From Terebella lapidaria (Eukaryota > Annelida > Polychaeta > Terebellida > Terebellidae), in assembly GCA_949152475.1 (NCBI GenBank), contig OX424562.1:39852157-39916156 (forward strand): DNA of 64,000 nt. The letters are read 5' to 3'. Positions 21,758 through 61,313 of the stretch are shown here, one piece after another; position 1 is the first letter of the stretch, and the number at the start of each line of letters is the position of its first letter. Made by a program: the position numbers and the translations under genes. The notes under the pieces were generated by a model, which was not told the origin of the DNA, did not search any database, and was given only the letters and a program-made list of their open reading frames with translations.

Positions 21758-23205
21758 TTTTTAGGTTACCGTACCTATGGTCCGTTAACCTATATCTATT
21801 GCCATGGCGTTGCGTCCGTCGTCCGTCCGTCCGTCGTCGTCCGTCCACATTTTTATCTTTAAAGTGTATAGTCCAATCTTTCTGAAAATTTGGGAAAAGA
21901 TACCTTAAAATAATTCGAGAAGGAGGTATTTTTTATTTTTTTTATTTTTTATTTTTTTTTCAAAATGGCGACCGTTTTCGTCGAAAAACGGGCAATTTTT
22001 TACTTTGGCGGCCATTTTCTCAAAAACTGTCAGATTTGAGATTTTTGTTTCAAAAGATTGCTCTTATGTACTTCTGTGATGTGTATAAGTTTGGTTGCCC
22101 TTGAATCGCCGGTCAAAATAAAAACTTTCGCCCCAGATCGCATTACTACGGAGCCCCTGAGGTGACATACCAGATATATTATTAACCCGTGCGCACGAAT
22201 TAGTAAACTGTGCGCACGAATTAGTAAACCGTGGCCACGAATTGGTAAACCGTGCACACGAATTAGTAAACCGTGGCCACGAATTGGTAAACTGTGGCCA
22301 CGAATTAGTAAATCGTGCGCACGAATTAGTAAACCGTGCACACGAATTAGTAAACCGTGGCCACGAATTAGTAAACCGTGGCCACGAATTGGTAAACCGT
22401 GCGCACGGATTACCTTAACTAATCTGTGGGCATGATTTAACAATCCGTGGGCACGATTTGATAATTCGTGAGCACGATTTAACAATTCGTGCGCACGATT
22501 TAACAATTCGTGCGCACGAATTAGTATTTCGTGGCCACAGATTGGTATAACTAATCTGTGGGCACGATTTACCAATTCGTGGGCACGAATTAGTATTTCG
22601 TGCCCACAGATTGTTAATTTGTGGCCACGAATTGTTAAATTGTGCGCACGGTTTGGTAAACCGTGCACACAGATTAATAAATATTTTCGGTATGTCACCT
22701 CAGGGGCTCCGTACATTACTATCCATTTTGGGCCATTTCTAGGCAGAAGAAAAATTTCACCCTTTGAAAAAAAAATTTCGCACTTTTTTCCTTCATATTG
22801 GGAGCTGCCAGGACTGTACTCATAGAACGTTTGAAGATAGAGCTTAGAAATTGGCACACTTGCACATACAGGTTAAGATTGTGTATAAGCTTACAAGAGA
22901 TCATGTATTTATGGCACATCTTTTGGTGACTTTGAATATGACCTTATATGTGACCTTGAAGGCCAAATCTCACAATCTGACCTGACCTGACATGTGTAAA
23001 TTGACCTCATCAGACAAAATGCTTGTTGATAGAGCTTTTATGTTTGTATTATGAAGTCATATGCAGCATACCTAATGATGACACTGCAGTTCACAAAGAT
23101 CACCTTAATTGGTAAATCTCAAGTTCATATGTCAGTAATGTCACCTGCAATGCTTGAAACTAAAATTGTCCGGTAACCTATCTTTAACCCTTGGGCTAAT
23201 TTTTT
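21758..23205 (+). mobile_element. HINE/Helentron-like element with an inserted TIR element
   Basis: The 5' terminus TTAGGTTACCG is followed by a GTCC-rich microsatellite. The 3' terminus is CCGGTAACCTA followed by a hairpin (TTAACCC-TT-GGGCTAA) and a T-run. Internal sequence matches the copy at 56262-58066 in the opposite orientation. A TIR element (22147-22713) is inserted in it. No Rep/helicase coding is seen, so it is non-autonomous. Confidence 0.6.
22147..22713. mobile_element. TIR element A with 21-bp palindromic-array core
   Basis: Perfect 25-bp terminal inverted repeats begin TACGGAGCCCCTGAGG (22147-22171) and end CCTCAGGGGCTCCGTA (22689-22713). They enclose a 21-bp tandem array of self-complementary decamers (CGTGCGCACG, CGTGGCCACG and variants) alternating with AT-rich 11-mers such as AATTAGTAAAC. 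The 6-bp cattac flanks both sides. The uninterrupted site is visible in the HINE-like copy at about 57634-57652 (minus strand), which has cattac once. The element is 567 bp and encodes nothing; the heptapeptide frames through it reflect the 21-bp period. Confidence 0.85.
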
Positions 23206-23356
23206 TTTTACTTGAAATTGTGTTTGAATGTTCCTTTCGTGAGAGGGTGGGGGGGGGGGGGGTGAAACGGGGGGTTATTGAATCGTTTGTTTCAAAATGG
23301 TGGCCGTTTTCGACGAAAAACGCCGGATTTTGGCAGCCAGTTTCTGATGCTTATAT

Positions 23357-24764
23357 TTAGCTTACCGGCCCTTTAGCTTACTGCCCTTTGGGTCGATATG
23401 CTATTCTCGTGGTTTTTCGTCCGTCGTACATCCGGGTCTGTAACTTTTTTTGACATGATGAATTTCCACATAAATTGGTCAGAACATACTTTGGGCCAGT
23501 ATCTAAAGACGTTTTCTTAATTTTTTGATTGAATCGTTTTTGTTGATTTGGTGACCATTTTTGACGAAAAATTGCCAATTTTGGACATTGGTGGCCATTT
23601 TCTCAAAAACTGTCTGATCAGTTTTGAGATTTTTGTTTTAAAACATTCCGCTTATATACGTCTATGTCGTGTATTTGTTCCGTTGCCCTTGAATCGCCGG
23701 TCTGCGTGTGACGGCTATTTTGATATTTTTACGGGTAGACAAAAACATTTTTTTTTGTCCCAAATCGAGTCACTATTTGGAGCCCCTGTTCGGAGCCCCT
23801 GAGGTGACATACCGAAAATATTTATTAATTCGTGCGCACGGTTTACCACGAATTGTTAAATCGTGCGCACAGATTAATAAATATTTTCAGTATGTCACTT
23901 CAGGAGCTCCGTAGTTTTGAGCCATTTCCAGCAAAAAAAATTTTTTTTTTGGCCATTCAAATTTTTTTTTTTACTTTTTTTGGAAAATTTCACCCAATTT
24001 TTAATGGGAGCTGTGCGGAGTAAACTCATATAACACTTCATGATAGAGCCTAAGTATTGGCACATTCAAATAGGAAATCCTATATTGCGGTTTGAGTGGT
24101 GACCTTGAATTTGACCTTCAATGACCTTAAAAGGTCAAAACGACCTTTTTTGTCGGAAAAAACAATGAATTTTGTCTTTGATTGCCATTTTCTCAAAATC
24201 TATTCAGTTTTCTTCAAAATCATGTATGAGATTCTCCTCATGTACCTTTGTGATGTGTATAAGTTTTGTTGCCTTTGAAATCACGGTCTGCGTGTGCCGG
24301 CCATTTTGATTTTTGGACGGGTCAGCGAAAAAATTTTTTTGTCCCAAATCGAGTCACTATTTCTTTTTGAGCCATCTCCAGGAAAAAAAAAAAAAAAATT
24401 GGCTATTGAAAAATTTTTGGGACTTTTTTGGGGGGAAAATTTCACCCAATTTTTCCTTCATAATGGGAATTTGCGGGGTAAACTCATAAAACCCTTCAAA
24501 ATAAAACCTAAGTATTGGGACCTTCAAATGGGAAATCATATATTGCGGTTTGAATGGTGACCTTGGATATGACCTTGAATGTCAAAATGACCATTTTTTT
24601 TTTTGGCGGCCATTTTCTCAAAATTTATTCAGACAATTTTCGAACATTTACGAACATGTTTCAACAATAGATTTTAACATCAGTGTAAAAGTTTATATAT
24701 TGGAAAATCAGTATTCTATGCTATTCTCATGATTGCCGGTAAGCTATAGCACCCTTAGTGCTAT
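23357..24764 (+). mobile_element. HINE/Helentron-like element, second terminal subfamily
   Basis: The 5' end is TAGCTTACCGG and the 3' end CCGGTAAGCTA, followed by a hairpin with arms TAGCAC and GTGCTA. Both the terminal repeat and the hairpin differ from the other copies but remain self-complementary. The interior shares blocks with the other copies (ggccattttctcaaaa, cccaaatcgagtcactat). A shortened TIR element lies at 23790-23913. Confidence 0.6.
23790..23913. mobile_element. TIR element B, internally deleted
   Basis: Both 25-bp ends are recognisable (left CGGAGCCCCTGAGG, right with two changes) but only a few array units remain, 124 bp in all. The flanks (cactattt on the left, gttttgagcc on the right) are the same host-repeat site as in element C. 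It is therefore most likely a deletion derivative carried in a duplicated host repeat. A stray GGAGCCCCTG precedes it at 23779. Confidence 0.7.
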
Positions 24765-24904
24765 GTTTTCTAATTTATGCGTAAGTCTTCTCATGATGTC
24801 CATTGTTGCCATTGAATCGCTGGTCTTTGTGTGGTGGCCATTTTCATTTTCTCTGACGGGTCGGGGATTTTGTTTTGTCTGAAGTCAAGTCACTATTTGT
24901 TTTG

Positions 24905-25472
24905 TACGGAGCCCCTGAGGTGACATACCGAAAATATTTTTTAATTCGTGCGCACGGTTTACCAATCCGTGCGCACGAATTACCAAACCGTGCGCACAAT
25001 TTAATAATTCATAGCCACGAATGAACAATCTGTGGTCACGATTTACTAATTCGTGGGCACGAAATATTAATTCGTGCCCACGAATTGGTAAATCGTGCCC
25101 ACGGATTAGTTATACCAATCCGTGGCCACGAAATACTAATTCGTGCTCACGAATTGTTAAATCGTGCCCACGAATTATTAAATAGTGCCCACGGATTGTT
25201 AAATCATGCCCACAGATTAGTTAAGGTAATCCGTGCGCACAGTTTACCAATTCGTGGCCACGGTTTACTAATTCGTGCGCACAGTTTACTAATTCGTGTG
25301 CACGGTTTACTAATTCATGCGCACGGTTTGCTAATTCGTGCGCACGGTTTACTAATTCATGGCCACGGTTTACCAATTCGTGGCCACAGTTTATTAATTC
25401 GTGCGCACGGTTTACTAATTCGTGCGCACGGATTAATAAATATATCTGGTATGTCACCTCAGGGGCTCCGTA
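24905..25472. mobile_element. TIR element C with 21-bp palindromic-array core
   Basis: 568 bp, bounded by TACGGAGCCCCTGAGG and its inverse. The 6-bp gttttg lies directly outside both ends (24899-24904 and 25473-25478). A related uninterrupted host sequence (cactatttctttttgagcc) is present at about 24351-24370. The array polarity changes near the middle, so the element is nearly an inverted repeat of itself. Confidence 0.85.
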
Positions 25473-25526
25473 GTTTTGAGCCATTTCCAACTAAAATTTT
25501 TTTTTTGCCATTGAAGAGCACCCCCG

Positions 25527-26505
25527 TACGGAGCCCCTGAGATGACACCAAAAATATTTATTAATTCGTGCACACGGCTTACCAATACGTGCGCACAGTT
25601 TACCAATCCGTGCGCACGAATTACCAAACCGTGCACACGATTTAACAAAGGCCACGAATTAACAATCTGTGGGCACAATTTACTAATTCGTGGGCACGAA
25701 ATACTAATTCGTGCCCACAAATTGGTCATACCAATCTGAAATACTAATTCGTGCTCACGAATTGTTAAATCGTGCGCACGAATTGTTGCATCATGCCCAC
25801 GAATTCTTAAATCGGCTCCACAGATTAGTTAGGGTAATCCGTGCGCACAGTTTACGAATTCGTGGCCACGGTTTACTAATTCGTGCGCACAGTTTACTAA
25901 TTTGTGCACACGGTTTACTAATTCGTGGCCACGGTTTACTAATTCGTGCGCACAGTTTACTAATTCATGCGCACAGATTAATAAATATATCTGGTATGTC
26001 TGAAAATATTTATTAATCCGTGCACACGATTTAACACTAATTTGTGGGCACAGAATACTAGTTCGTGGCCACGAAATACCAATTCGTGGACACAAAATAC
26101 TAATTCGTGGCAACGAAATACTAATTCGTGGGCACGAAATACTAATTCGTGGCCTCGAAGTACTAATTCGTGCGCACGGATTACCTTAACTAATCTGTGG
26201 GCATGATTTAACAATCTGTGTGCACGATTTAACAATTCGTGCGCACGAATTAGTGTTTCGTGGCCACGGATTGGTACAACTAATCTGTGGGCCCGATTTA
26301 CCAATTCGTGGGCACAAATTAGTAAATCGTGCCCACGGATTGTTAATTCGTGGCCACGAATTGTTAAATTGTGCGCACGGTTTGGCAATTCGTGCGCACG
26401 GATTGGCAATTCGTGCACACGGATTGGTAAACCGTGCACACGGATTGGTAAACCGTGTGCACGAATTAATAAATATTTTCGGTATGTCACCTCAGGGGCT
26501 CCGTA
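25527..26505. mobile_element. Composite TIR element D/E
   Basis: The left end TACGGAGCCCCTGAG is at 25527 and the intact right end at 26481-26505. At about 25990-26000 a right terminus is cut after GGTATGTC and runs directly into sequence normally found just inside a left terminus (GAAAATATTTATTAAT). Two arrays are thus joined head to tail inside one pair of full ends. Outer flanks do not match each other, which suggests recombination rather than simple insertion. Confidence 0.75.
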
Positions 26506-26714: not shown

Positions 26715-27818
26715 TTCGTTCGCTTCCATAGGGTCCAGTTTGAAGTTTCAGGGTTCGCTTCCGTAAGGTTCCGTTTGAAGGTGCAGGGTTCGTTCCGTAG
26801 GGTTCAGTTTCAAGGTGCAGGGTTCGTTTCCGTACGGTTCGGTTTAAAGGCGCAGAGTTCGCTTCCATAGGGTTCAGTTTGAAAGTGCAGGGTTCGCTTC
26901 CGTAAGGTTCAGTCTGAAGGTGCAGGATTCTCTTCTGTAAGGTTCGGTTTGAAGGTGCAGGGTTAGTGTCTATAGGGTTCAGCTTGAAGGTGCAGGGTTC
27001 GCTTCCGTAGGGTTTCGTTTGAAGGTGCAGGGTTCGCTTCTGTAGGGTTCAGTCTCAAGGTGCAGGGTTCGTTTCCGTAGGGTTCGGTTTGAAGTTTAAG
27101 GGTTCGCTTCCGAAGGGTTTCGTTTGAAGGTGCAGGGTTCGCTTCTGTAGGGTTCAGTTTCAAGGTGCAGGATTCGTTTCCGTACGGTTCGGTTTGAAGG
27201 CGCAGAGTTCGCTTCCATGGAGTTCAGTTTGGAGGTGCAGGTTTCGTTTCCATAGGGTTCAATTTGAAAGTGCAGGGTTCGCTTCTGTAGGGTTCAGTTT
27301 GAAGGTGCAGGTTTCGTTTCCATAGGGTTCAATTTGAAAGTGCAGGGTTCGCTTCCGTAGGGTTCAGTTTGAAGGTGCATGGTTCGCTTGCGTAGTATTC
27401 AGTTTGAAAGTGCAGGGTTCGCTTCCGTAGGGTTCAGTTTGAAGGTGGAGGGTTCGCTTCCGTAGGGTTCAGTTTGAAGTTTTAGAGTTCGCTTCAGTAC
27501 GTTTCAGTTTGAAAGTGCAGGGTTCGCTTCCGTAGGGTTCAGTTTGAAGTTTTAGAGTTCGCTTCAGTACGGTTCAGTTTGAAAGTGCAGGGTTCGCTTC
27601 CGTGGGGTTCAGTTTGAAGTTTTAGAGTTCGCTTCAGTACGGTTCAGTTTGAAGGTGCAGGGTTCGCTTTTGTAAGGTTCGGTTTGAAGGTGCAGGGTTA
27701 GCGTCTTTAGGGTTCAGCTTGGAGGTGCAGGGTTTGTTTCCATGTGGTTCAGTTTGAATATGCATCGTTCGCTTCAGTAGGGTTTAGTTCGAAGGTGCAG
27801 GGTTCGTTTCCGTAGGAT
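26715..27818. repeat. 35-bp satellite array with a 70-bp higher-order segment
   Basis: About 31 tandem copies of a 35-bp unit containing GGTTCGCTTCCGTAGG and TTCAGTTTGAAGGTGCAG. Register is kept at exact 35-bp steps (for example 26891, 26926, 26961). Between 27471 and 27650 two unit variants alternate to make a 70-bp repeat present three times. Poly-C tracts flank the region at about 26629-26650 and 27869-27890. Confidence 0.9.
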
Positions 27819-28370: not shown

Positions 28371-28925
28371 TTACCACGAGATACCAGTGAGAACTAAATC
28401 TGACGAAAATCTGGTATGAGCTAGCTGAGTCTTAGCCAGAAATGAAGGGATAACCCCGAGAGTAACCGCGGAGCCATCTTCCTTCCAAAGAACTTTGGAA
28501 AAGTCAAGAGCATGAAGCTCACTTCTCCTCTTCCCCGAAGCTAAGGCCAGGAGGAACACGGTCTTGAACGTAAGAAACTTAAGCGACGCTCTCTCCAAGG
28601 GTTCAAACGGATCAGAGAGAAGACAATTTAGAACGAGCGATAGATCCCAGGTCGGGACGGGATTCCTCAACTTGGGTCTCTCCACCACAAAACTATTCAA
28701 CAAAGCGGACAAACTTGCATCCTGACCGAAATCAACCCCCGTTTTGGGTTTGATAGTTTTTGCAATCGCAGTCCTATAGCCTGCGAGCGTAGAGGGGGCT
28801 TTCCCCTCCTTGAACTTCTCAAGGAGAAACTCGGAAATCACAGGAGCAGTGACCTTGAAAGGACAAATGTTCCGGCCACGGCACCAAGCACAGAATCTCG
28901 TCCACTTGGATTGGTAGACTGCCAA
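28371..28925 (-). pseudogene. Truncated DIRS tyrosine recombinase
   Basis: A SAM-like N-terminal domain (YQSKWTRFCAWC, then STLAGYRTAI) leads to the first catalytic Arg (ALASGKRRSELHALD). The frame stops at 28371, before the second catalytic cluster H-x-x-R and the nucleophilic Tyr, so recombination activity is lost. Confidence 0.8.
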
Positions 28926-28929
28926 AGAA

Positions 28930-29870
28930 GATCGTCAATTAGTTCGGGCGATCCTAGCTGACACCTCTCTTGAAAAGCCCTTCTTTCGGTAACATCGCTC
29001 GACAAGAGCCACGCGTGTAGCTTGAGCGTGCCCGGGGCTTGATGGAAGCGATCTGACCGCGGCTGTTTTAACAGATCCGACCGATCTGGCAGTGGAATTG
29101 GGCTGTCCACCAACAACTCCAGAAGGTCCGGGAACCACGACTTCTGTGGAAGTTGTGGGGCAATGAGAATCATCCTGCTGCGATGAGCCTTGAACTTGGC
29201 TAGAACCTTGTCCAAGAGAATGGCAGGAGGAAAAGCATAAAGAAACATCCCGTCCCAATCCAGGGACATCGCGTCGACCGCCCATGCTTGATCGTCTGGG
29301 ATCGGGGACACAAACGTCGGAAGCTTGGTATTCCACCTCGTGGCGAACAGATCCACTGCAGGTCTGTCCCACAGGTGACAGATCGCCCGGAAGACTACCG
29401 GAGACAACGACCACTCCGTGGCCTGAATCTGGCCCCGACGAGACATACGATCGGCCCACACATTCATATAACCGGGAATGTGCCGGGCCCTGAGCGTGAT
29501 CCGGTGGTGGAAGCACCAGGTCAGCATCTCCACCGTCAACAAACACAGGGAAATGGACTTGGTCCCGCCCTGCTTGTTGACGTAAGCCACGACCGTTGAA
29601 TTGTCCGTGGCGAGCAAAACCACCTGGTCTGAGAACTGGTGCTCCCAATGCTGAAGCGCGAGAAACACGGCCCTCATCTCCAGCACATTGATATGGTCGT
29701 CCTGTTGTGACCGAGACCACCGACCCGAAATCTCTTGATCGTCCCAGTGAGCTCCCCATCCCTCCATACTGGCATCCATAAAGAGATGCCTGGAGGGAGG
29801 AGGCGGACGGAATGGAGCGCCCCGAAACAAATTGGCCGGGTCCAACCACCATCGCAGGTCTCGAACGACC
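28930..29870 (-). pseudogene. DIRS RNase H domain
   Basis: It contains FMDASMEGWGAHW, INVLEMRAVFLAL and LLATDNSTVVAYVNKQGG, which match the D-E-D RNase H motifs of DIRS/Ngaro pol, followed by the domain linking to the recombinase (WADRMSR, VDLFATRWNTKLP, AFPPAILL). The frame loses register with the recombinase around 28925. Confidence 0.8.
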
Positions 29871-31068
29871 TGGTCCTATAGTGAACCAACTGGGCCATGT
29901 CCCCCGTTGCCTGCAACCAGTTGGCATGAAGCTGCAACTGGAGGGACCGCATATGCAAGCGACCTAGAGGCACCATCTTCTCGGTCGCCGCTAATGTACC
30001 GATCAGAGACTGCCAACGCGAGGCTGGCTGAGGAACCCTGGTTAAGAAACCGCGGGACTGCTCTGATAACTTTGACCAACGTTCCTCCGTCGGGATAACA
30101 TAACCGGAGGTAGTCCGAAATCGATACCCCAAGAAAACGAAGTCTTGACGAGGAGATAAATCGGACTTTTTTTGATTGATTTTGAAGCCCATGGACTGAC
30201 ACGAATCCACAACCCACTGGGCCTGACGAAGCAAAGTTTGAGGGCACTGATGCCTGATCAACCAATCGTCGAGATACTGGTAGATCACAATGCCGTTCCG
30301 ATGGGCCAACACCTGTAGCTCCCGAACGCACATCGTAAAGATCCAAGGGGCGGTGGACAGACCGAAAGGCAACGCCCGAAACTGCCACACCTGGCCCTGA
30401 TAAAAGAACCTGAGGTATTTTCTGACGGACCTCCTCATAGGCACGTGAAAATAAGCATCCTTGAGGTCGATTGTCACGACCCAAGCCCCCAAGGACATAG
30501 CCGACCGTACCATCTCCGCCGTCTCCATGGTGAAGGTGGGAATAAGCAGATAACGGTTGAGAGCGGAAAGATCTATCACCGGCCTCCAACCGCCCGAAGC
30601 CTTCGGAACCACAAACAGGATACTGTAAAACCCCGGGGAGCTGCCCGAAACTGGTTCTAACCCTCGCTTTTGAATCATGGCCGAAATCTCGTCTATCAGC
30701 GCCTGACGCCTTTCCGGGTCGTGAGGCAACGAAAAAACCCTTGGAGTGAGCGTCAACGGAGGAAACTGTTCGAACCGTAGACCGAACTCCCGACGCAAGG
30801 TGGAGACGATCCAAGGACTGGCTCCTAGGTCTCGCCAACGAAGCCAAAAACCTCCTAGTCGCGCGCCGACAGGCTCGTTTATATCCAAGATATTTACTGG
30901 AGCGAGTGAACTTGGAGACTCGACCAGACGTGGGGGTCCCACGAGAGAAGATGAGGGTATTACCTGACTTCTTAGCCCCTGCTGGCTTTGCTGGGCTAGC
31001 TGGACGTCCGCGACCGCGACCTCCACGTCCACGCTGCCCCCCTCGCTGACCGCCGGCAGGGGCCCCAC
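29870..31068 (-). pseudogene. DIRS reverse transcriptase
   Basis: The DIRS-like entry region INEPVGARL and SPWIVSTLRREF precedes RT motifs VVPKASGGWRPVIDLSALN, TIDLKDAYFHVPM, LPFGLSTAPWIFT, the catalytic YQYLDDWLI and FLGYRF. It overlaps the end of gag by about 130 bp. A frame change near 29870 carries the protein into the RNase H frame; the last ~65 residues of the frame, to 29674, are out of register. Confidence 0.85.
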
Positions 31069-32790
31069 GAAAGGGCCGGTCCAGGGCCTTGCCTTTACCG
31101 CGCCCTACCGCTGAGGACCCAGCACCAGAGGAAGCTGACTGCTGCTGCTGCTGTGGGCGCTTACGCTGCTGCTGCTGCTGTAAAAGCATGCGGAACCATC
31201 TCTCCATAGCCTTAGACTGCATAAGGGAAGCGTCAGTCGAGGCCTTGGCCCGGTCCCGCTCCTCTTGACGAGACTTAAGGGCATCCACCTCGAGGTGAGC
31301 ATCCACAGGGAAGAGAAAAGGAGAGGCGGGCCCAGACTCCGGGAGAACTGGATGACCACGGAGCTTAGCCAGCAACTGGTCAGGGACCTTCAAGTCCAGA
31401 CGCTGGATCACGGAATCCCTCCGCCAAAGCTCCGATGTCCACCAGGCCGTGCAATCTAGGGAAACCTTATCCGCCACAGCCTTTCCCAACGACTGTAAGA
31501 GTCCAACAGAGCCATGGAGCACATCTGCGAGTTCAGAGCGATCGAGGTTCTCATTGTCCATGACCTGCTCATAACACGACGTCGTAGCCAGCGTGAGAGC
31601 ATGGACCATCCAATCCATCGATGAATCCACGGCCACGCCCAAACGTAAAGCAGCCTGGAAATCCGTCAACTGATTCCACGGGAGAGAAACAGTCTCAGGC
31701 ACAGAGAAGATCTCCTGTTCCTGTAGCTTGGAAGGCTCTGCATCCAGGACTGACGAAGAGTAAAAATCCTGGATCTTAGGCTTAGCCGGCAAGAGTCCAA
31801 GCTGAGGATGGCCACGTTTTGCCGTTTCCTCCACCCTAGCTGCCAACATGTTCCGAACACCCGGTGCTACCGGAAAGCGCAAAGCGTCACGAGGGACCTT
31901 GGGCTGCTGGAGATCCCGCTCCGTGAAAGAGCGCGCCCGCTTGGCTGGAGGTGGGGATGTTGACGCCAGATCCGGCCACTCCTCCCCAGTAAGCCTACGG
32001 ACATAATCCAGTTTATCGGCCCACGGGCGCTTAAAAGGATTATTTGACTCCTCCTCATCCTGGGAGCCGAGATCATCCTCACGGAGGCGCTTGGGACGAA
32101 CCAGACCCGAAGGACCCGGCAAAGGCACAATGCCGTCTTCCCGAGAGCTGTAGGGCAAATCCACCGAAGACTCCGCAGAAGGAGACGCCGCCGGAGGGGC
32201 CTGAAGCCGCTGGACATCAGGAACCTGGCGCGCCAGGAAAGAATCCAGCCTGTTCAGAAACTCAGACCTCATGGCTTGCATCTCCGCCTGAAACTCGCCT
32301 CGCGACAAAAAATGGGAGGAGACCCCCGGTATCGTGGACAAGGGAGTGCGGAACGGTGCCGTAGCCACAGACAGCGCAGAAACCGAGGCCGAAGGTGACG
32401 CAGACGTAGCCGCCACAGAGGCAGAAGTCGAAGGAGCAGCAGGCGCAGAATGCGTAGCATCCACTGAAGATGTAGAGGCAGTTACCTGGGATTCCATTGG
32501 AGCCGACGAAGCCGGGGGGTTGGAAACCCCTGGAAGGAGGGGAGATGACGGGACCTCCGCACCCTCAAAATCCTCCGCAATCTGCGGGAAAAATCTCACG
32601 TTAGAATCAAATGACACAGACTTGCGAGATGATTTGATGGAAGTAGTAACGCGAGTTTGTGGACGCGAATGCCATTGGTTAACTATAACCCTGGGAGACA
32701 GAGGATAGCCGGGCCTAAAACCCGTACCCGCCATTGAGCTCCGCTGGGATAACGGCCTAGGGGATCCACACCCTGAAACATGGAACAGAG
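30940..32790 (-). pseudogene. DIRS gag-like ORF, main part
   Basis: This is the central part of a frame open from 33004 to 29876. It covers a Ser/Ala-rich linker, a helical region (GEFQAEMQAMRSEFLNRLD), a gag core (PRDALRFPVAPGVRNMLAA, then TDFQAALRLGVAVD) and a Gln-rich then Arg/Gly-rich tail. Sequence of the same frame beyond about 30940 is an out-of-frame reading of the RT gene, and its first ~80 residues overlap the other gag frame. Overlap of gag with pol is normal in DIRS elements. Confidence 0.6.
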
Positions 32791-33635
32791 GTGAGGATAA
32801 AGGCCGAAACTGGTTCCCGGGAACCGAGGCACGGCTCCCGGGAACCGGTTCCCGGAAACCGATTCCCGGGAACCGTATGTACCGAACCAGCCAGAGTGGA
32901 GACAGCCGTAGCCGCCGCCGCCCCAGAGGAACGTGGCAAACCCAAGGCAGGAAACCGGCCCCCGGAATACGGGTATCCCGAGGCGCCAGACGCCTGAAGT
33001 CCACAAATTGAGACGTTGACGGAATTGAACCTACGGGTAGAGGACACCGAAGGCCGCATCCGAACAGAGCTCAATGCCAGGTAACCGGGGTCTATGGGCA
33101 TGTTTCGGCCCCTTGCCCGGCTACCCTCAGGCGGGACAGGGTTAGAGTTAACCAATGTCATACACGAAGTATGAATTGAAGAACTCGCGGTACTACCGCG
33201 GTAGTACTGGTTCCCGGGATCCGGCAAGCCGGGTCCCGGGAACCGAGGAAGGCTGAAAGAAGAGCATAAATCATTACTCACAGCAGATATCAAATGCAGT
33301 AAAGATAAATCCTGCTCCTCACGCTTCTGTATGGCCTGTTTATGTCTAGACCTAGCGCTAGAACTAGCCGAGGGACTTGGAAAGGGCGGGAGAGGTTTAC
33401 TCATCCTTTCTTGTTGAACGGCTCTAAGACCACGCAAGTAGTCTGACCACTCGTCGACCGACCAACTCCCACACAGACCACAAGTCGCCGTTGGCCGACA
33501 CAAAGATCTGCACATCCAGCAGGAAACGTGCAGCTCCCATTTCGGCAAAAACTGCTTACAGCCCGCGCACTTCATCTGGAAAATTCCAACATGAAAGAAT
33601 GGGGGCGGGCGATAATTGAGGAAACTAAGTAACAC
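32757..33635 (-). pseudogene. DIRS gag-like ORF, N-terminal part
   Basis: A Cys-rich N-terminus contains CAGC, CWMC and CGLC pairs before residue about 60, resembling zinc-binding N-termini of animal DIRS gag proteins, followed by a Ser/Arg-rich linker. The last third is coded by the minisatellite of TTCCCGGGAA palindromes (32811-32872 and 33207-33244). The frame then stops near 32757 and the protein continues in another frame. Confidence 0.6.
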
Positions 33636-36318: not shown

Positions 36319-39300
36319 TCACGCCTTGTGGTTGGAGGTGACAGAGTACTCCTCGACCTCGGAGTCGCTCTGTAAGTGGTCCAGCTCCGGGTCCTTGTCG
36401 TCTGTCGCCAGGGGCGAGAAGCGGTGCCTCCCGCGGCTCAGCAGCGTCCCCAGGTCCAGACGACGATTGTGGTTCCGACTCCCGAACAGAAACGGCAGCT
36501 TTCCTGTCAGTGGGCGAGAGAACAGCAAGGTTTACTGGTGAATCATGGGACGCAAAATTAAAACGGTAACAGCTTGAAGGAGTGTGGCATATTTCAGCAT
36601 TCTCATCAATGTATTAACTAAGGTTACAATGACATTTACGATGACAATTACTACTCTCCCACACAACACTTACTTATATTGTAGCTATTAGAATTATTTC
36701 TAAGTATTTTTGTGAATAGAGCATGTCATTAGGTACTTAAGTGTGTGTGAAGCATTAAATATAGGTACAGGCGTTCAAGGAATAGAAGCTTTAATTGTAA
36801 CTGTAATCAAATTTACACTGGGGTGAAATTAAGATTTTAGTGAATTACATGTAGGAAAACCTTCACCATAAGTTTTTATGACACAGGTTAATGAATGACC
36901 AAACATGATTAAACACATTTTCATGCATAAATTTAAATTTCTCACTGACAGCTATAGACCATGCACCCACTGCCACCAAATATTTCTGTTCACATGTTAA
37001 CATATTAAATAGTAGCATTTATCGAAGCTTTGAAAGCAAGTATATGCATTCCAAAAACCTTACAATTATGTTTCTGGTCTCTGTTGCTATGGTGTAACCA
37101 TGATTACATGGACAGCTCTTCTTCTTGTAGGAGTTTTGTATATTTATGGGCCTCATTTTCTGTTCAGGGTTGGTTGACCGGGATATAAATGATAAATGAG
37201 TGAATACAGGAATAATACAGGGTGATAATAAAACTGAATACATTCAATACATGCAACAATGAAAGTTATCTTTTATGTACATTTATTCAGGCCACAATAT
37301 CACTGACAACTTTCACTGCATTAGATCATGTCACTTTGAATTCGAATAGCGACACACTATGAGATAATGTTCTTGTGTATATTTATTCATTTTTCCATGT
37401 ACTGCAGGTAAGGTATCCACCTGTAAAATACCAACCGTTCCTGTACTTCTGATACATATCTAAAACACAGCATGCTAGACAACCACAGCTTTACTCTCAC
37501 GTCCCACATACACACACACTGGCAGTCTTTGCCGTGTGCTGTTAACTGACCACGTTTCTTGAGCCGCAGACACACTGTGATGACAACGATGATGATCACC
37601 GGGACGATGAGCAGGGCACCGATGATCAGCGACGCACCGAAATCGTCCTCCGCGTCCTTGTCAATGACGTCCTCGCCGCCGCCATCCTCATCGCTGGAGC
37701 TGGGGTGTCCTCCCATCCTCTGCTGAGGGTCCACCGCCGCGCTCAGGACGGAACCTGTCGTGGGGAGAGAGGGGGGGGGGGGGGGGGGGGGTCTTGTGTC
37801 GTCAGCAATGTTATAAATACAGCATTTTGTGTCATACAACATAATTTTACTACAGTTAAGATACACAAAGTATTTTGAACACATGGAAGCTTTAATACAT
37901 AGCAATATATAGAAAGGTGTCGTACCACTGGCCTCGGGGTCATCAATGTGAAATCTGTGGAGTTTGTTCGGTTTTATCTCGCTAACAAACAGACAGCTAC
38001 CGTCTTTACTCAATGCAATATCGTGTGGATGGCTGAGTGGCTGAAACAGCAGGACAGGACCAATGATTAAGATGGATGTTCTTGTATGTATGGGCAAGTG
38101 TAATAAAAAGACAGATGATACATGAATTTGTTCCAAATCTTTTTGTGCTCAGGCTGAATAGTCAAAGCTTAGGCACCGAATATTGTACTCACAAAACAGT
38201 GATAACCTGCAAAGTATATTGTAAACAAAGCTCGAGATTTTTAAAAAAAAACTGTCGACAGAAGGGAAATCAACAAATTTGAGTGCACTCGACTGACCAC
38301 AGTATCAGGCTGCCAAGTCTGCAGCAAAGATCCATTCAGAGGGTTGAAGACATATCCTTGAAGGCTTTCTTGATTTGTTAAGTCCTGGCCACTTACAGCA
38401 TAAAGTAAACCTGGAAAACATCACAATCACACATTTACATCTGGCAAATTAAACTACTCGTTAAATACAATAATGATGTACAACTCATCAATTACGGTAT
38501 TGCTAAAATCATACATACATGTATTATATATATTTCACTATGTATATGCATGTCTGTTAGGTCATGATGTATGACATCATGAATCATGATGTATGTGTAT
38601 GGCAGAACAGTGTCAGGTGTGTTCAAACATATGTCTGTATATCACACAGATGAATATTCATGAATATTCATGTATGCTTGTGTATATATCTATCACTCTA
38701 CCACTCTACTATCGACGATAAATATCTTCAAAAAAAAACAAAATAAAATCATACATATTCACACAATGTTGCCTTCCCCATCACAGATCATTTTTACACT
38801 TCACTTCCGTATCTTCTGATGAAAGACCCGAGTACCCACCGTTGGCTGGCGAGAATGCGACCGAGAACACCTGGGTGCCTTTGTCTGACGGGAACATCTG
38901 TCGTACAAAGTTGCCGTCGAGGTCGAAGCACTGGATGCGGCGGTTGAGTCGGTCGGCCACACAGACGAGGTTCGCCGACTCCAGCAATGCGATACCGTGA
39001 GGCAAGGCAAATGTGGCAGGGGGAGGGTAACCATTACCTGACAAAGATAGGGGTACACATGCAGCAATCAGTACCTGTAATTGGAAGATTATATTTGCTC
39101 ATATACATTAGAAAGTGAAGATTGATTAGAAATTAGCCCAATGGGCTAGAAAGGTTACCAGAGAAATATACAGAGTTAAGCCGAGAAAGTTGAAGGTCAA
39201 ATTCAAGGTGACCACTGAAATCGCCATATCTCTAACCTTGAAAATGGGATCAAAGGTTAAATTCTAGATCACCAAACTATTCAGCATACATCATTTCCTA

Positions 39301-42300
39301 TATGTTCACTATGGACCCCTAAGCTGTAAATTTGATAAGCGAGATATAAGCCATTTTGTAATCTGACTTTGAGAATAAAATGACTGACCTTGAAATTTAG
39401 GTCAAAGGTCAAATTCAATATCGTTAAAATATTCAGAATATATCATTTCCTATATGTTCACAATTGATTCCTAAGCTGTAAAGTCGATAATAAGCGAGAT
39501 ATTAGCCATTTTGTCCTGTTGACCTTGAAAATGAGGTCAAAAGTCAAATTCAAGGTCATGAGAATATTCAGCATATATCATTTCCTATATGTTCACAATT
39601 GATTCCTAAGCTGTAAAGTCGATAATAAGCGAGATATTAGCCATTTTGTCATGTGACCTTGAAAATGAGGTCAAAGGTCAAATTCAAGGTCATGAGAATT
39701 TTCAGCATATATCATTTCCTATATGTTCACAATTGATTCCTAAGCTGTAAAGTCGCTAATAAGCAAGATATTGGCCGTTTTGTCCTGTGACCTTGAAAAT
39801 GAGGTCAAAGGTCAAATTCAAGGTCACCAGAATTTTCAGCATATATCAACTGGCAATGTCGGCGTTTGAGAAGGCAGTCACGTTGGAAATTGCTAAAGCT
39901 TTTCAGCTATTTTTTACCAGGTTTATCTGGGGCAGAAAAACTATTTTTTATACCATTTTGTCGGTAAGGTAACAAGAAACGCATTCACTGTATCATATAT
40001 CAGGATACGGTGGATAATGTATGTTTTTATCAGGATTTTAAACTGAATGGTTGTCAATTTTGTGTCACGCATCAACGAACACACTTGTTGTCGTCAGTTT
40101 GGTTAACGGCGTACCTGGTTTATCGATTTTTCTCCGTTTGGCCTCCACGGCCAACAACCTGGTGGTTGTACGCATGTTATACAGTTTGTGTGAGCGTGCC
40201 TTCGGACAATACCTGTTTTATGCTTCTTCTGTCTGAGTTCATTATGGTTGTCGGTCTAGCAATACAACATTCTTCATAGTCGTGTGTGGTAGCGTTCGCA
40301 ATGTGAAGTGTTATTGTACAATTGTACAATACACCTGCGTTGCGTCTTTCTATATTTCACTTCATACTCTGGTTGTTTGCTTTAAAATGGATTTTCGCTT
40401 TACAAAAATTATTACCCTGTCATTAGTTTTCTTCATTGCCAGGAACAATCACGTGCAAAATGAACACCTGGATAATGCCAAATCTGAGGTAACTGGTGAA
40501 CCAATGCCCATTAACTGGTTTGTGCTTGCCCGTTATTCTAGGACAAACTGCATACAGTTCCCTAGTAGTGTACGTGCGTTTGGATTGTCCGCATTGCTGA
40601 TTCTGGCAGGTGACATCGCCTCAAATCCCGGCCCTGTTAACTTTGCATGTGGAAATTGTCGGTCCATCAGGAACAAAGGTCCGGCCATCGCGGACTTGGT
40701 CACCTCTGCCAAATGTCAGGACTAATGACACTGCATCATTTCTCAGTGAACTAACCCCTAGTGGATATAAACTCTTCCATTCCCCTCGCGTTGGAAAGAC
40801 GGGCGGTGGTGTTGGTTTCCTGGTAAAACAAACTCTGGATGTCTCCCTGGTTGCAGCACCTAGTTTTGGTTCTTTTGAGAACATTGTCGTTTCTGTACGA
40901 TGGCGTGATAACACATTGAATTTTGCTTCAATCTATAGACCCCCTGGTTCTGGTATCGCAGTTTTCCTGGAAGAATTTATGTCATTTTCTGGTTTCATAT
41001 CGTCCCTGTCTGCCTCAACTATAATCAGCGGTGATTTCAACATCCACATTGATACCGTTTCAAACACCAGTTGTGATTTCAAATTGATGCTTGATTCCTG
41101 TAATTTTGTTCAACATATAAACTTCCCTACTCATATCCATGGCCACACTCTTGATTTACTTATCACCCCATCGGATTTCACAGTGGAAAATTTGTGTAGG
41201 CTGGGTTGTTTAAGCGACCATTTCTGCATCAGTTGCACACTGGATATCGATTCAGCCCCTAAACCACCTAGTAAATACATAACATTTCGTCAGTATCACA
41301 AGATAAATCACGAAAAACTAAAACAAGATCTGCAAAATACTGCCTTCATTGTATCGCCTTCTGACAACATTACCGAACTTTACGACCAATATATGAACAG
41401 CCTTTCCTCTGTAATTGATGCTCATGCACCACTAAAAACGAAATGTGTGGACAAACCCACTCCAGTTTGGATAACTCCGGAATATCGTGAGGCCAAACGG
41501 TTACGTAGACAGCTTGAAAGAACTTGGAGAAAAGTCCCATCTGTGCTGAATAGATTGAAACTACGACGACAGATCAGTAAATGCAACTCAATCATAAACA
41601 ACTCAAAACGAGATCATTACACTAATATTATTAAGAACAATTCTGATGATCCAAAAAAACTATGGAAAGAAATGAACAATATTTTGCATAGGAAACATCA
41701 GACTGCTTTGCCCGGAAGCAAAGATGACACGCTCCTTGCCAATATGTTTGGTTCTTTCTTCACAGACAAAATCACACGTATACGAAACAATTTCACAAAG
41801 CAGCCTAAACAGACCACTTCACCAGCGATATCACCTGTTGAGTTCAATCACTTCGAGCCTGCATCTGAACAGCTTATTCGGAAAGTCATTCTTGATTCTC
41901 CTACTAAATCATGTATTCTCGACCCTTGGCCCACTTTCCTGGTTAAAGATTTTGTTGACATTTTGGTACCATCTATCACTAAATTGGTTAACTGCTCCAT
42001 GATGGAAGGTTTAGTGCCTAGTAGATTAAAACAGGCTGTAATTACTCCATTGCTTAAAAATCCCTCGTTATCCAAGGAAGAGATGAAAAACTACCGCCCA
42101 GTATCGGGTCTATGTTTCATCTCCAAACTGGTTGAACGAGTGGTTGCATCCCAGATTAAACAACACTTGGATAAAAGCAATTTGGGTAATCCATTCCAGT
42201 CTGCCTACAAGAGCGGCCACTCAACAGAAACTGCGTTGTTAAATATAAAGAATGACATACACATTTCGTTGTCAAAAAGCATGCCGACTGCTCTGGTATT

Positions 42301-45300
42301 ACTTGATCTTTCGGCTGCTTTCGACACGATCGACCATTCAGTTCTCTTAGAATGTCTATCATCTTGGTTTGGCTTTGGTGGGACTGCACGCAAGTGGTTC
42401 TCGTCCTATTTGTCTGGTAGGGTCCAATCAGTTAAGGTTGGCGACAGCCTTTCAGAGCCCGCAGATATAAAATTTGGTGTTCCACAGGGATCAGTTCTTG
42501 GTCCCATTTTGTTTTCCATGTACACAACACCTCTACATAAAATAATCTCTGCACATAATACGGTTAACTATCATTTCTATGCTGATGATACTCAGCTTTA
42601 TATGCCACTCTCACAAACAAATTGTGCTACGGATCTGGTCACGCTCCAGGAATGTCTCAAAGATGTCCAAAACTGGATGAATGCAAACAAGCTTAAGCTA
42701 AATCCAGATAAAACTGAGTTCATCCTGTTTGGTACCAAGTCTCAAAGGGCTAAGATGGCAGATTGTTTTCCAGTGGATATTCTTGGAAATGAAATCAGTC
42801 CTACGGAAAAAGCACGCAATTTAGGTGTTGTTTTTGATTCTGATTTTTCATTCTCCAATCAGGTTGTTTCTGTTTGTAAATCATGTTTTGTGGGTCTTCG
42901 TGACCTAAGAAGGATCAGGCGTAATCTTTCGAAAAGCAATACAATTACATTGGCTAATGCACTAGTTAGTAGTAGACTTGATTATTGTAATTCATTGTAT
43001 AGGTCTTTATCCAGTCGGGATTTGAATAAGTTACAATGTGTTCAGAATACTTTGGCCCGCATTGTCACTCGGACATCTAAGTTCTCTCATATTACCCCTG
43101 TTCTCAGGTCACTACATTGGTTGCCCATTAGGCACAGAATAGAGTTTAAAACCGCAACAATTATTTATAAATCATTGCATACGGGACTACCTGCATATTT
43201 CAACGATCACCTAACTCGCTACACATGTAAAGTGAACACGAGGCGTGGCAATCCTGATAAACTGTTCCTCCATGTCCCACTTTATAAACCTTCCATTAAT
43301 AAATCAAAGGTTCAATTTCAAAACAGTTTGAGTTATGACGGCCCCTCACTTTGGAATTCCCTACCAAATGATATTCGTTCTGCTCCAACCCTGTCTAGTT
43401 TCAGGCATCAGCTTAAGACGCATCTATTTCAGGATGCCTATCCCCCTTAACCTTCTCAACACAGCCGGTTGTCATCTCGATCACGAACTATTTCTGACCA
43501 CGTTTTATGATATTGGTTATTAATCAGGACTGTTGCGCCTTAGAATTCGTTATACGAAATTAAGCGCTATAAAAGTTTGATATATTATTATTATTATTAT
43601 TTCCTATATGTTCACAATCGATTCCTAAGCTGTAAAGTCGCTAATAAGCAAGATATTGGCCATTTTGTCCTGTGACCTTGAAAATGAGGTCAAAGCTCAA
43701 ATTCAAGGCCACGAGAATATTCAGCATATATCATTTCCTATATGTTCACAATTGATTCCTAAGCTGTAAAGTCGATAATAAGCGAGATATTAGCAATTTT
43801 GTCCTGCGACCTTGGAAATGAGGTCAAAGGTCAAATTCAAGGTCACGAAAATATTCAGCATATATCATTTCCTATATGTTCACAATTGATTCCTAAACTG
43901 TAAAGTCGATAATAAGCGAGATATTAGCCATTTTGTCATGTGACCTTGAAAATGAGGTCAAAGGTCAAATTCAAGGTCACAAGAATATTCAGCATATATC
44001 ATTTCCTATATGTTCACAACTGATTCCTAAGCTGTAAAGTCGATAATAAGCGAGATATTAGCCATTTTGTCCTGTGACCTTGAAAATGAGGTCAAAAGTC
44101 AAATTCAAGGTCACGAGAATATTCAGCATATATCATTTCCTATATGTCCACAATTCATTCCTAGTCTCTAATTTCAATATTAAGTGAGATATTAGGCTTA
44201 ATGTGTGCCATTATAAAGCATAGGAAAATTTAACATGGGAAAGTCACATTTGGGCCGAGTTTGGGCCCAAAATGGCCCACTTCAAGCGATTCAAGCGCAA
44301 CGAAATTTATACATAACACAGGGGTACATATGAGGAGTGTTTTTTATCAATAAGAAAAAAAAGTTACTGAACAGATTTTGAGAAAACGACCGTCGAAGTC
44401 CAAAATTGGCCATTTTTCGACGAAAACGACCGCTCTGACCTTCATACCAAGGTCAGAGGTCAAATTCAAGGTCACGACAATATTCAGCATATATCATTTC
44501 CTATATGTCCACAATTGATTCCTAGTCTCTAATCTCAATATTAAGTGAGATATTAGACCTTCATACCAAGGTCAGAGGTCAAATTCAAGGTCACGACAAT
44601 ATTCAGCATATATCATTTCCTATATGTCCACAATTGATTCCTAGTCTCTAATCTCAATATTAAGTGAGATATTAGGCTTTAATGTGTCCCGTTATAAAGC
44701 ATAGGAGAATTTAACATGGGAAAGTCCCATTTGGGCCGAGTTTGGGCCCACTTCAAGCGATTCAAGCGCAACGAAATTTATACATGTCACAGGGGTACAT
44801 AGGAGGAGTGTCATGCATCAATAAGAAAAAAAGTTACTGAACAGATTTTGAGAAAACGACCATCAAAGTCCAAAATTGGCCATTTTTCGACGAAAACGGC
44901 CGCCATTTTGAAAAAAATGCGAAAATCAAAAAACTAAAAAAAACCTTTCCTGGAAATATTTTTAGGTATTTTTGTGCAAAATTTCAGAAATATTCGCCTG
45001 TAAACTTTAATGATAAAAATGTGGACGGACGGACGACGGACGCCGGACGCAACGCCACGGCAATAGGTTATCGAACCAAAGGTCCGGTAACCTAAAAATA
45101 AGCCTCCAATAACTAGGTAACAAATTCAAAACCTGATACACTGTATCATGTTTTCTGATACACCATGTAAGTATTGCTTATTGACCAGTTTTCCCCTCTG
45201 ACTGACCTTCTATACTGGAGCTAGGTTCCCCCCACTGCTTCAGCATCTTGCCATCTGCAGTGAACTTCATCACACGCGCATTACAATACCTGTCAAAACA

Positions 45301-56261: not shown

Positions 56262-58066
56262 AATTAGCCCAAGGGCTAAGATAGGTTACCGGACAATTTT
56301 AGTTGAAACACGACAGGTGAGATATGACGTTCAGATTAACCAATCAAGGTCATTTTTGTGAACTTCAATGTCATCATTAAGTGTGCAGCATAATTATAAC
56401 CTTGTATTCATGTATGTTCAAAATACAAATACAAGGTCTATCTACAAGTCTTTTTGTCTATAGACAAAATTTACACATTTCTTGTTGGATGTGACACTGA
56501 GATACAGCACTCAATGTCATCTGAGGTCAAGTTCAAGGTCACCAAAAGAAGTGGTATGTATGACTTCCAATTCCAGCTATACATGTACCTACAAACATTT
56601 TTTGGCTGTAGGGGCCAATTTACACATTCAAGGGGCACTCCATTCAAAGCACTCCATCTTTATACACAATGTCGGGGACCCCAATTAGCATGTTTTATAA
56701 CAAAAATCTCAAAACTCATCAGATAAATTTGAAGGAAAACGACCAAAAATTAAATTTGGGGGCCTATTCAGCCTAGAGTTCGAGCTTTTTGAGCAATTCA
56801 AGGCACTTTATACACTATATACATCTTTATACAAAATGTCAAAAACCCCAATTACTATGTTTTGAAAATAAAAATCACAAAAGTGATCAGACAGTTTTCG
56901 CTTAAAGACAAACAAGATGCAAATTTGGGCATTTTTCCACCCAAAAATGGCTGTTTTGACCTTTCAAGGTCATCCAAGGTCAAATTCAAGGTCACCACAC
57001 AAGTCGCCATATATATGACTTCCCATTTGAAAGTGCCAATTTCTAAGCTCTATCTTCAAGCGTTCTAGGATTACTGTTCTGGCAGCTCCCATTATGAAGG
57101 AAAAAAGTGCCGAAAATTTTGTAAGTCAAAAATTTTTTTCAAAGGGTGAAAATTTTTTTTTAGCTAGTAATGACCCAAAATGGATAGTATTGCGATTTGG
57201 GGCAGAAAAAATATTTTTTCGCTGACCTGTCAAAAATTCAAAATGGCCGCCACGCGGAGACCAGCGATTCAAGGGCAACAAAACTTATACACATCATAAA
57301 GGTATATAGGGGGAATCTTTTGAAACAAAAATCTTAAAACTGATCAGACAGTTTTCTAGAAAAGACAGACAAGGTGCAAATTTGGGCATTTTTCGACCCA
57401 AAAATGGCTGTTTTGACCTTTCAAGGCCCACCAAGGTCAAATTCAAGGTCATCACACAAGTCACCATATATGACTTCCCATTCGAAAGTGCCAATTTCTA
57501 AGCTCTATCTTCAAGCGTTCTAGGAGTACTGTTCTGGCAGCTGCCATTATGAAGGAAAAAGAGGCTGAAAATTTTCTAAGTCCAATAAGTTTCAAAGGGT
57601 GAAAAAAAAAATTTTTGTCTAGAAATGACCCAAAATGGATAGTAATGCGATTTGGGCCGAAAATTTTTTTTTTCGTCGACCCGTCGAAAATTCAAAACGG
57701 CCGCCATACGCACACCGGCGATTCAAGGGCGACCAAACTTATACACATCACAGAGGCACATAACGAGAATCTTTTGAAAGAAAAATATCAAACTGATCAG
57801 ACAGTTTTTGAGAAAATGGCCGCCAAAGTCCAAAATTGGTAATTTTTGGTTAAAATTGGCCGCCCTTTTGGGAAAAATGCGAAAATCAAAAAACCAAAAA
57901 AAAAACCCCTCTTGAAATATTTTTAGGCATTTTTGTGCAAAATTTCAGAAAAATGCGCCTGTAAACTTTAAAGATACAGATGTGGACGGACGACAGACGA
58001 CGGACGGACAACGGACGCAACGCGACGGCAATAGGTTATCGGACCATAGGTCCGGTAACCTAAAAA
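56262..58066 (-). mobile_element. HINE/Helentron-like element without the 134-bp array
   Basis: It has the same 5' terminus (AGGTTACCGGACC, at 58066) and 3' hairpin (TTAGCCC-TT-GGGCTAA, at 56262) as the PAM intron copies. The core consists of repeated blocks with ggccattttt and gattcaagggc(g/a)a. It carries the empty target of TIR element A at about 57634-57652. Confidence 0.6.
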
Positions 58067-60798: not shown

Positions 60799-61313
60799 AG
60801 CCCCAAAAGTGGCTCTTCAACCTAGTGATCGATATGGGCGGTTGATGGAGCCACATGACACCCTTGGTTAGAAATCGGAAATCACAAGTCTTTATCCGTG
60901 TGGCTCTAAGCTAAATGGTGTGGCAACTCATGAATGGTTTATTTTGTTTCCTTGACAACTTCTGAAGAGTGTGGCACAGTTCAGGTTATCTATAATCGTT
61001 CTTCGTTTGTATTTACATCTTTTAACGCATCAACCCATCCATCTTTGCTTGAATTCTAGTCTCTCGGACTGTAGCACTGAAAAATATAAATACATTGATA
61101 TCACATGAAGAACGATTACAGGCACTCTCAAACTGTGCCACACTCTTCAAAAGTTGTCAAGGAAACAAAATAATCATTTTGTGAAATGTCACATTGCTGA
61201 TTTTAGAGCCACACGGATGAAGACTTGTGATTTCCGATTTCTAACCAAGGGTGTCATGTGGCTCCATCAACCGCCCATATCGATCACTAGGTTGAAGAGC
61301 CACTTTTGGGGCT
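60799..61313. repeat. Foldback inverted repeat, arms of about 110 bp and longer
   Basis: Left arm 60799-60910 and right arm 61203-61313 are inverted copies with about one mismatch, running from AGCCCCAAAAGTGGCTCTTC to GTGTGGCTCTAA. Weaker inverted similarity continues inward to about 61009 and 61085, leaving a loop of roughly 75 bp. It is probably a long-TIR MITE or foldback element. No target duplication is clear and nothing is coded. Confidence 0.75.

Follow-up and report, generated by a model that had tools for sequence, protein, structure and literature searches.

In a 64,000-nucleotide stretch of the genome of the polychaete Terebella lapidaria (assembly GCA_949152475.1, contig OX424562.1; this whole stretch is called the window below), the region from 22147 to 26505 holds a family of short transposable elements with perfect inverted ends, 6-bp target duplications and a core of 21-bp units with dyad symmetry. 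The presence of this family is confirmed, and its ends and target duplications match those of the IS3EU group. We read it as a non-autonomous terminal inverted repeat (TIR) DNA transposon of an animal genome, akin to a miniature inverted-repeat transposable element (MITE) and mobilized by an IS3EU/GingerRoot-type transposase acting in trans, and put the probability of this reading at roughly three in four.

Copies, ends and insertion sites

Four pieces of a single element family lie in the region (Table 1): elements A and C are intact and stand in opposite orientation, and elements B and D are damaged, the latter being composed of the parts D1 and D2. The original prediction, which had been made from the letters of the window alone, gave sizes of 567 and 568 bp for A and C and perfect 25-bp inverted ends for both; the sizes were borne out by alignment and the ends by a scan in which the same 25 bp stood without mismatch at all four termini. 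Beyond this perfect end, an AT-rich stretch is similar yet imperfect between the two sides. In a common orientation the alignment of A with C spans 610 columns with gaps, and of its 525 aligned positions 493 are identical. The end scan, which covered the whole 64 kb with the 25-bp end and at most 8 mismatches, gave nine matches, eight of which are the ends of A (0 and 0 mismatches), B (1 and 3), C (0 and 0) and D (5 and 0), while the ninth (53255, 8 mismatches) looks like a chance match. The end of C and the start of D are separated by 54 bp. The right inverted end of D1 is cut after GGTATGTC and fused to D2, and at the fusion joint (25981-26010) the palindrome expected from abutting ends has eroded to GGTATGTC. 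Element B is rearranged in its left flank and followed by GTTTTG on the right.

Both intact elements are bordered by exact copies of the predicted hexamers, CATTAC at A and GTTTTG at C, and at their inverted-end boundaries 6 bp is the sole length above 1 bp over which the flanks match. Random pairs of window positions agree over 6 bp at a frequency of 0.00034 (200,000 trials), so that its occurrence in both of the two intact elements is hardly a matter of chance. The damaged elements B and D have no target duplication. An 8-bp duplication that includes the terminal TA was also considered and is rejected, since the boundaries of A and C match at 1 and 6 bp only; it is also countered by the empty site at 57.6 kb, which has a single CATTAC.

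A, B and C are flanked by sequence of a host repeat, about 450 bp long, that is present elsewhere in uninterrupted form. Six target-bearing copies of this repeat were aligned, three of them occupied (by A, B and C) and three empty (near 24355, 57640 and 57190); a search with the target stretch of one copy recovered five of the six, missing the one that holds C, and found no additional full copy in the window. The uninterrupted site that had been predicted for A was found with its CATTAC intact. The unoccupied relative predicted for C reads CTTTTTG near 24355, where C has GTTTTG, and is thus related, not identical. The element-free copies at 57.2, 57.6 and 24.35 kb speak against the possibility, raised beforehand, that the ends are part of a larger repeat.

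Two exact duplications and the empty sites support a cut-and-paste type of insertion that duplicates 6 bp; the part of the original claim that concerns insertion stands, and excision was not seen. A transposase would bind the element ends and cut the element out, and the excised element would be joined across a 6-bp stagger that repair would fill in. Because B, C and D2 have the right junction GTTTTG in common, two independent insertions are shown, not four, and B, C and D2 may descend from one insertion that was copied along with the host repeat. The insertion points of A and C are 11 bp apart in the aligned host repeat, and the chance of a second independent insertion this close is about 0.3% (arithmetic: 6 copies x 31 bp / 64 kb), which is a hint, and no more, of a target preference or a favourable region.

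Relation to IS3EU and to other superfamilies

Published families are compared here through excerpts of the papers cited. In these, TA..TA ends are described for every complete IS3EU family, with 6-bp duplications as the usual length, and GingerRoot has 6-bp duplications and mostly TA..TA ends (PMC10045372); TET-bearing IS3EU elements of fungi have 6-bp duplications, inverted repeats of more than 30 bp and TAYGG..CCRTA ends (PMC12730594). The Terebella family resembles both groups in its 6-bp duplications (two of two intact elements) and its TA..TA ends; each of the four ends of A and C follows the more specific signature TAYGG..CCRTA in the form TACGG..CCGTA. On the strength of these ends together with the 6-bp duplications, we file it as an IS3EU-like non-autonomous element, and the IS3EU comparison suggested by the original prediction fits. 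The generic marks of a MITE are also present, namely a length of 567/568 bp, inverted ends, target duplications and the lack of a Pfam-recognised gene, none of the three frames of at least 150 amino acids (aa) that run through the arrays having a Pfam match.

Some observations weigh against this assignment. No transposase is linked to the element ends, in the window or elsewhere; the independent duplications are only two, with none at the damaged copies; and the perfect inverted end measures 25 bp, whereas those of the fungal IS3EU families exceed 30 bp in the text available. The family also differs by its 21-bp dyad array, none being described for IS3EU or GingerRoot in the literature excerpts compared. 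Searches with 23 bp of the end and with a degenerate core pattern gave no exact match in viral, bacterial and archaeal contigs, among which few matches are to be expected.

It is unlikely that the ends stem from another superfamily with 6-bp duplications (Dada, hAT or a Polinton derivative) or from an undescribed one. Duplications of this length do occur in Polinton (PMC10045372) and some hAT elements (PMC12730594), and Dada makes duplications of 6-7 bp, but the TACGG..CCGTA ends agree letter for letter with the published IS3EU signature. Dada, which the original prediction had also proposed for comparison, is described in the excerpt as having no terminal inverted repeats and as targeting small RNA genes (PMC3706591). 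The present family, with its perfect 25-bp inverted ends and its targets within a repeat of about 450 bp (no search of that repeat against RNA families was made), does not fit that description. Polintons are large self-synthesising elements, and an element of 567-568 bp could at most be a short derivative of one.

That A, B, C and D are a local tandem duplication of a larger repeat and not insertions is very improbable: A, B and C do lie inside host-repeat units, D does begin just 54 bp past C and the right junction of B, C and D2 is the same, but A has the opposite orientation and a different duplication, offset by 11 bp when the repeats are aligned, and element-free units stand at 24.35, 57.2 and 57.6 kb. 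Among B, C and D2 themselves, such an origin may be true.

A core of 21-bp units with two dyads

The core had been predicted to consist of self-complementary decamers every 21 bp. The 21-bp period and the dyad-symmetric arms hold, and the fully palindromic centre is limited to 42 of 75 GTGnnCAC words (CG in 27, GC in 15). These 75 words, out of 90 in the window, are those that fall within 22147-26505. Perfect 10-bp palindromes number 33 in the same region and 103 in the remainder of the window, or 7.6 and 1.7 per kb; in 200 dinucleotide shuffles of the region they averaged 6.2, with 13 as the highest count. Self-identity is highest at a lag of 21, with values of 0.75 in A and 0.73 in C.

Register positions number 23 in A and 23 in C and follow each other in 21-bp steps bar two steps of 27 bp, both of which are also present in D2; one of the 23 positions of C, with two arm mismatches, was missed by the motif rule and restored by register for the unit statistics. 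The two long spacers of A are 132 bp apart, a distance that gives another peak of self-identity and suggests a higher-order duplication within the array. The larger alignment gaps between copies mostly span whole multiples of 21 bp, and D2 contains inverted units. The left sub-array of D2 (26044-26177) has mainly spacers of another type, GAAATACTAATTC, which is the reverse complement of GAATTAGTATTTC, a spacer found twice in A; unit types thus seem to have been exchanged between orientations.

A, C, D1 and D2 together have 80 register steps, of which 70 measure exactly 21 bp. Column statistics were taken from these 70 units (53 distinct), with the other 10 steps and all of B left out; the registers of D1 and D2 were chosen by motif, which biases those two toward intact arms. 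Across the 70 units GTG is invariant, the C and A of CAC are kept at 97% and its final C at 89%, and the TT and AA of the spacer at 90-99%; GTG..CAC is kept in 59 units and TT..AA in 56. Each 21-bp unit holds two dyads, GTGnnCAC and TTnnnAA, with centres 10.5 bp, or one helical turn, apart. The unit population is strand-symmetric on one axis, where the overlap of base frequencies with their own complement is 0.87 against 0.39 on the next best axis, and the conservation of symmetry mates correlates at 0.85, one other axis attaining 0.70. Part of this symmetry is to be expected from the presence of array units in both polarities; the two dyads are symmetric inside single units.

The arrays are crossed by open frames, 280 aa long in A, 171 aa in C and 356 aa in D2 and the sequence past it. 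Because 21 is a multiple of 3, a stop-free frame in one unit tends to remain open, and a coding array is rejected, these frames having no Pfam match.

The folding energies of single-stranded A and C are -202.2 and -187.6 kcal/mol, where 100 shuffles of each gave means of -77.1 and -72.9 (z values of -25.9 and -20.6). The prediction that the core could form many hairpins survives as this fold-back of the whole strand and fails for single decamers, since CGTGCGCACG and CGTGGCCACG alone fold at -0.2 kcal/mol and are nearly unstructured; a hairpin at every decamer is rejected. The core of A by itself folds at -169.9 kcal/mol, and when the ten decamer columns were permuted alike in all units the mean was -87.4 and the lowest value -108.5 (20 permutations), so that its fold-back depends on the dyads. 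Inverted ends plus a self-complementary array fold back in any case, and folding alone is thus no evidence of function.

Array history and possible constraint

Observed/expected CpG is 1.7-1.9 in the core and 0.8 in the rest of the window. Changes between A and C are most frequent at the decamer edges (10 of 42) and centres (7 of 42) and affect 4 of 126 arm positions, 9 of 233 spacer positions and none of 50 positions in the inverted ends. The edge letters of the 75 words are C (63), T (11) and A (1) on the left and G (58) and A (17) on the right, a pattern such as CpG decay would give.

Within each array, arms are far more alike than spacers. Off-consensus cells number 1 of 138 in the arms of A against 34 of 220 in its polarity-normalised spacers (Fisher 5e-7) and 5 of 138 against 33 of 220 in C (Fisher 6e-4), the two long spacers per element being omitted from these counts. 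The mean pairwise per-site difference between units is 1.4% (A) and 6.5% (C) in arms and 23-24% in spacers.

One explanation, to which we give about even odds, is that the core is a passive minisatellite whose dyads do no more than ease amplification. Slippage, unequal exchange and fold-back-assisted copying would have multiplied one palindromic unit inside the MITE, in keeping with a unit number that varies among copies, with large gaps that are mostly multiples of 21 bp and with arms and spacers that have diverged to the same degree between A and C; stem-loop growth of tandem repeats within MITEs is discussed in the available part of PMC8268682. The closeness of arms relative to spacers within the arrays is unexplained by this model, unless the spacers were mixed from different sources.

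A second explanation, which we offer tentatively and rather doubt, is that the core is a helically phased candidate binding array whose dyads were maintained in the active source while the intervening bases drifted. The alternation of GTGnnCAC and TTnnnAA every 10.5 bp could let a symmetric protein coat one face, candidates being the transposase, a partner protein or a host factor; the dyad-symmetric binding protein suggested by the original prediction is not contradicted by the results. This is opposed by the homologous arms and spacers of A and C, which diverge equally (p = 1) and give no sign of present constraint. The contrast of similarity within and not between arrays is itself not uniform, as arms differ less than spacers when A is compared with D1 and D2 after the first long spacer (arms 4/59 and 1/60; spacers 19/133 and 5/123). 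Cells within one array are moreover not independent, since units descend from one another. The picture that A and C present would arise if the motif had been maintained in an active source and was no longer maintained in dead copies; it would arise just as well from an array built from unit types with a common dyad and differing spacers.

We read the core as a CpG-rich minisatellite in which 21-bp units were gained, lost and inverted. On a conjecture to which we attach little confidence, the dyads could have been of use to an active source element, through protein binding or an ability to fold back, and the present copies would decay under little or no constraint.

Surroundings

Table 1 Coordinates of the element family, its target duplications and related host-repeat sites in the window
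Feature	Position	Strand	Description
Element A	22147..22713	+	Intact, 567 bp, 23 register units; by end scan and alignment
Inverted ends of A	22147-22171, 22689-22713		Perfect, 25 bp
Left target duplication of A	22141..22146	+	CATTAC
Right target duplication of A	22714..22719	+	CATTAC
Core of A	22188..22671	+	21-bp units, YGTGnnCACR plus 11-bp spacer
Long spacers of A	22407-22425 and 22539-22557	+	GGATTACCTTAACTAATCT and AGATTGGTATAACTAATCT
Element B	23789..23913	.	125-bp remnant; both ends (1, 3 mismatches), two GTGnnCAC words
Host-repeat copy related to target of B and C	24311..24388	+	Uninterrupted
Left target duplication of C	24899..24904	+	GTTTTG
Element C	24905..25472	-	Intact, 568 bp; orientation opposite to A; both 25-bp ends perfect
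Right target duplication of C	25473..25478	+	GTTTTG
Element D1	25527..26001	-	Oriented like C; degenerate left end (5 mismatches)
Element D2	26002..26505	+	Right end intact and followed by GTTTTG; left inverted end deleted
Second uninterrupted host-repeat copy	57187..57192	-	CAATAC (one-base variant) at target
Empty site for A	57642..57647	-	Uninterrupted CATTAC in host-repeat copy

The content of the window is animal-like, with an exon of an ionotropic glutamate receptor and frames of non-long-terminal-repeat retrotransposons in the Pfam scan; a long interspersed nuclear element (LINE) frame at 40601-43450 has 886 protein-search matches. Shortly to the right of D, a 35-bp tandem array of about 31 copies occupies 26718-27816. 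Overlapping long open frames follow at 28371-33070 (-), among which 29674-31104 has a reverse transcriptase match and the other three of the four frames scanned have no Pfam match; by their look, we take them to resemble a DIRS-type retroelement. A single 134-bp satellite-like unit makes up three arrays (39385-39848, 43595-44195 and 52119-53981), and two 209-bp stretches that are 99% identical (39130-39338 and 51861-52069) each stand directly ahead of a 134-bp array, which suggests a recent duplication. An inverted pair of 184 nt (60798-60981 and 61131-61314), 91% complementary and 149 nt apart, is possibly another inverted-repeat element or a remnant of one.

Known relatives and what the family may mean

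MITEs that bear repeats are already known, and an IS3EU-like one with a 21-bp dyad array joins that kind. In the excerpts available, the bivalve pearl-family MITEs CvA and DTC84 hold tandem-repeat cores, and DTC84 has a conserved palindrome near the repeat junction (PMC5139131). They resemble the present family as modular elements with a satellite-like core and differ in having arrays of at most 6 monomers, whereas A and C have 23 units of 21 bp; the comparison is by description. A Xenopus MITE with riding tandem repeats (Hikosaka and Kawahara 2004, via PMC8268682), likewise compared by description, is similar in the stem-loop growth of repeats proposed for it. Links between IS3EU and repeats have also been noted, as two oyster satellites are annotated IS3EU in a table of PMC8268682, which also lists the 21-bp satellite CgiSat43, and half of a beetle repeat is similar to an IS3EU element (PMC5844308). 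A term search of the text available for PMC10294476, PMC11136912 and PMC9860276 found no use of the name IS3EU, and the parts of the open-licence full-text literature covered here describe no IS3EU element with such a dyad array.

IS3EU elements are eukaryotic relatives of bacterial IS3/IS481 and use a DDE enzyme. A compact family with clean duplications, empty sites and an unusually ordered core offers a small substrate for testing the part of internal repeats in transposition. If the phased-array explanation were true, an IS3EU-type MITE would need an internal array as well as its ends; and if the dyads are functional, they would bring an internal cis-acting array into a group that is described, in the excerpts compared, by its ends, duplications and transposase.

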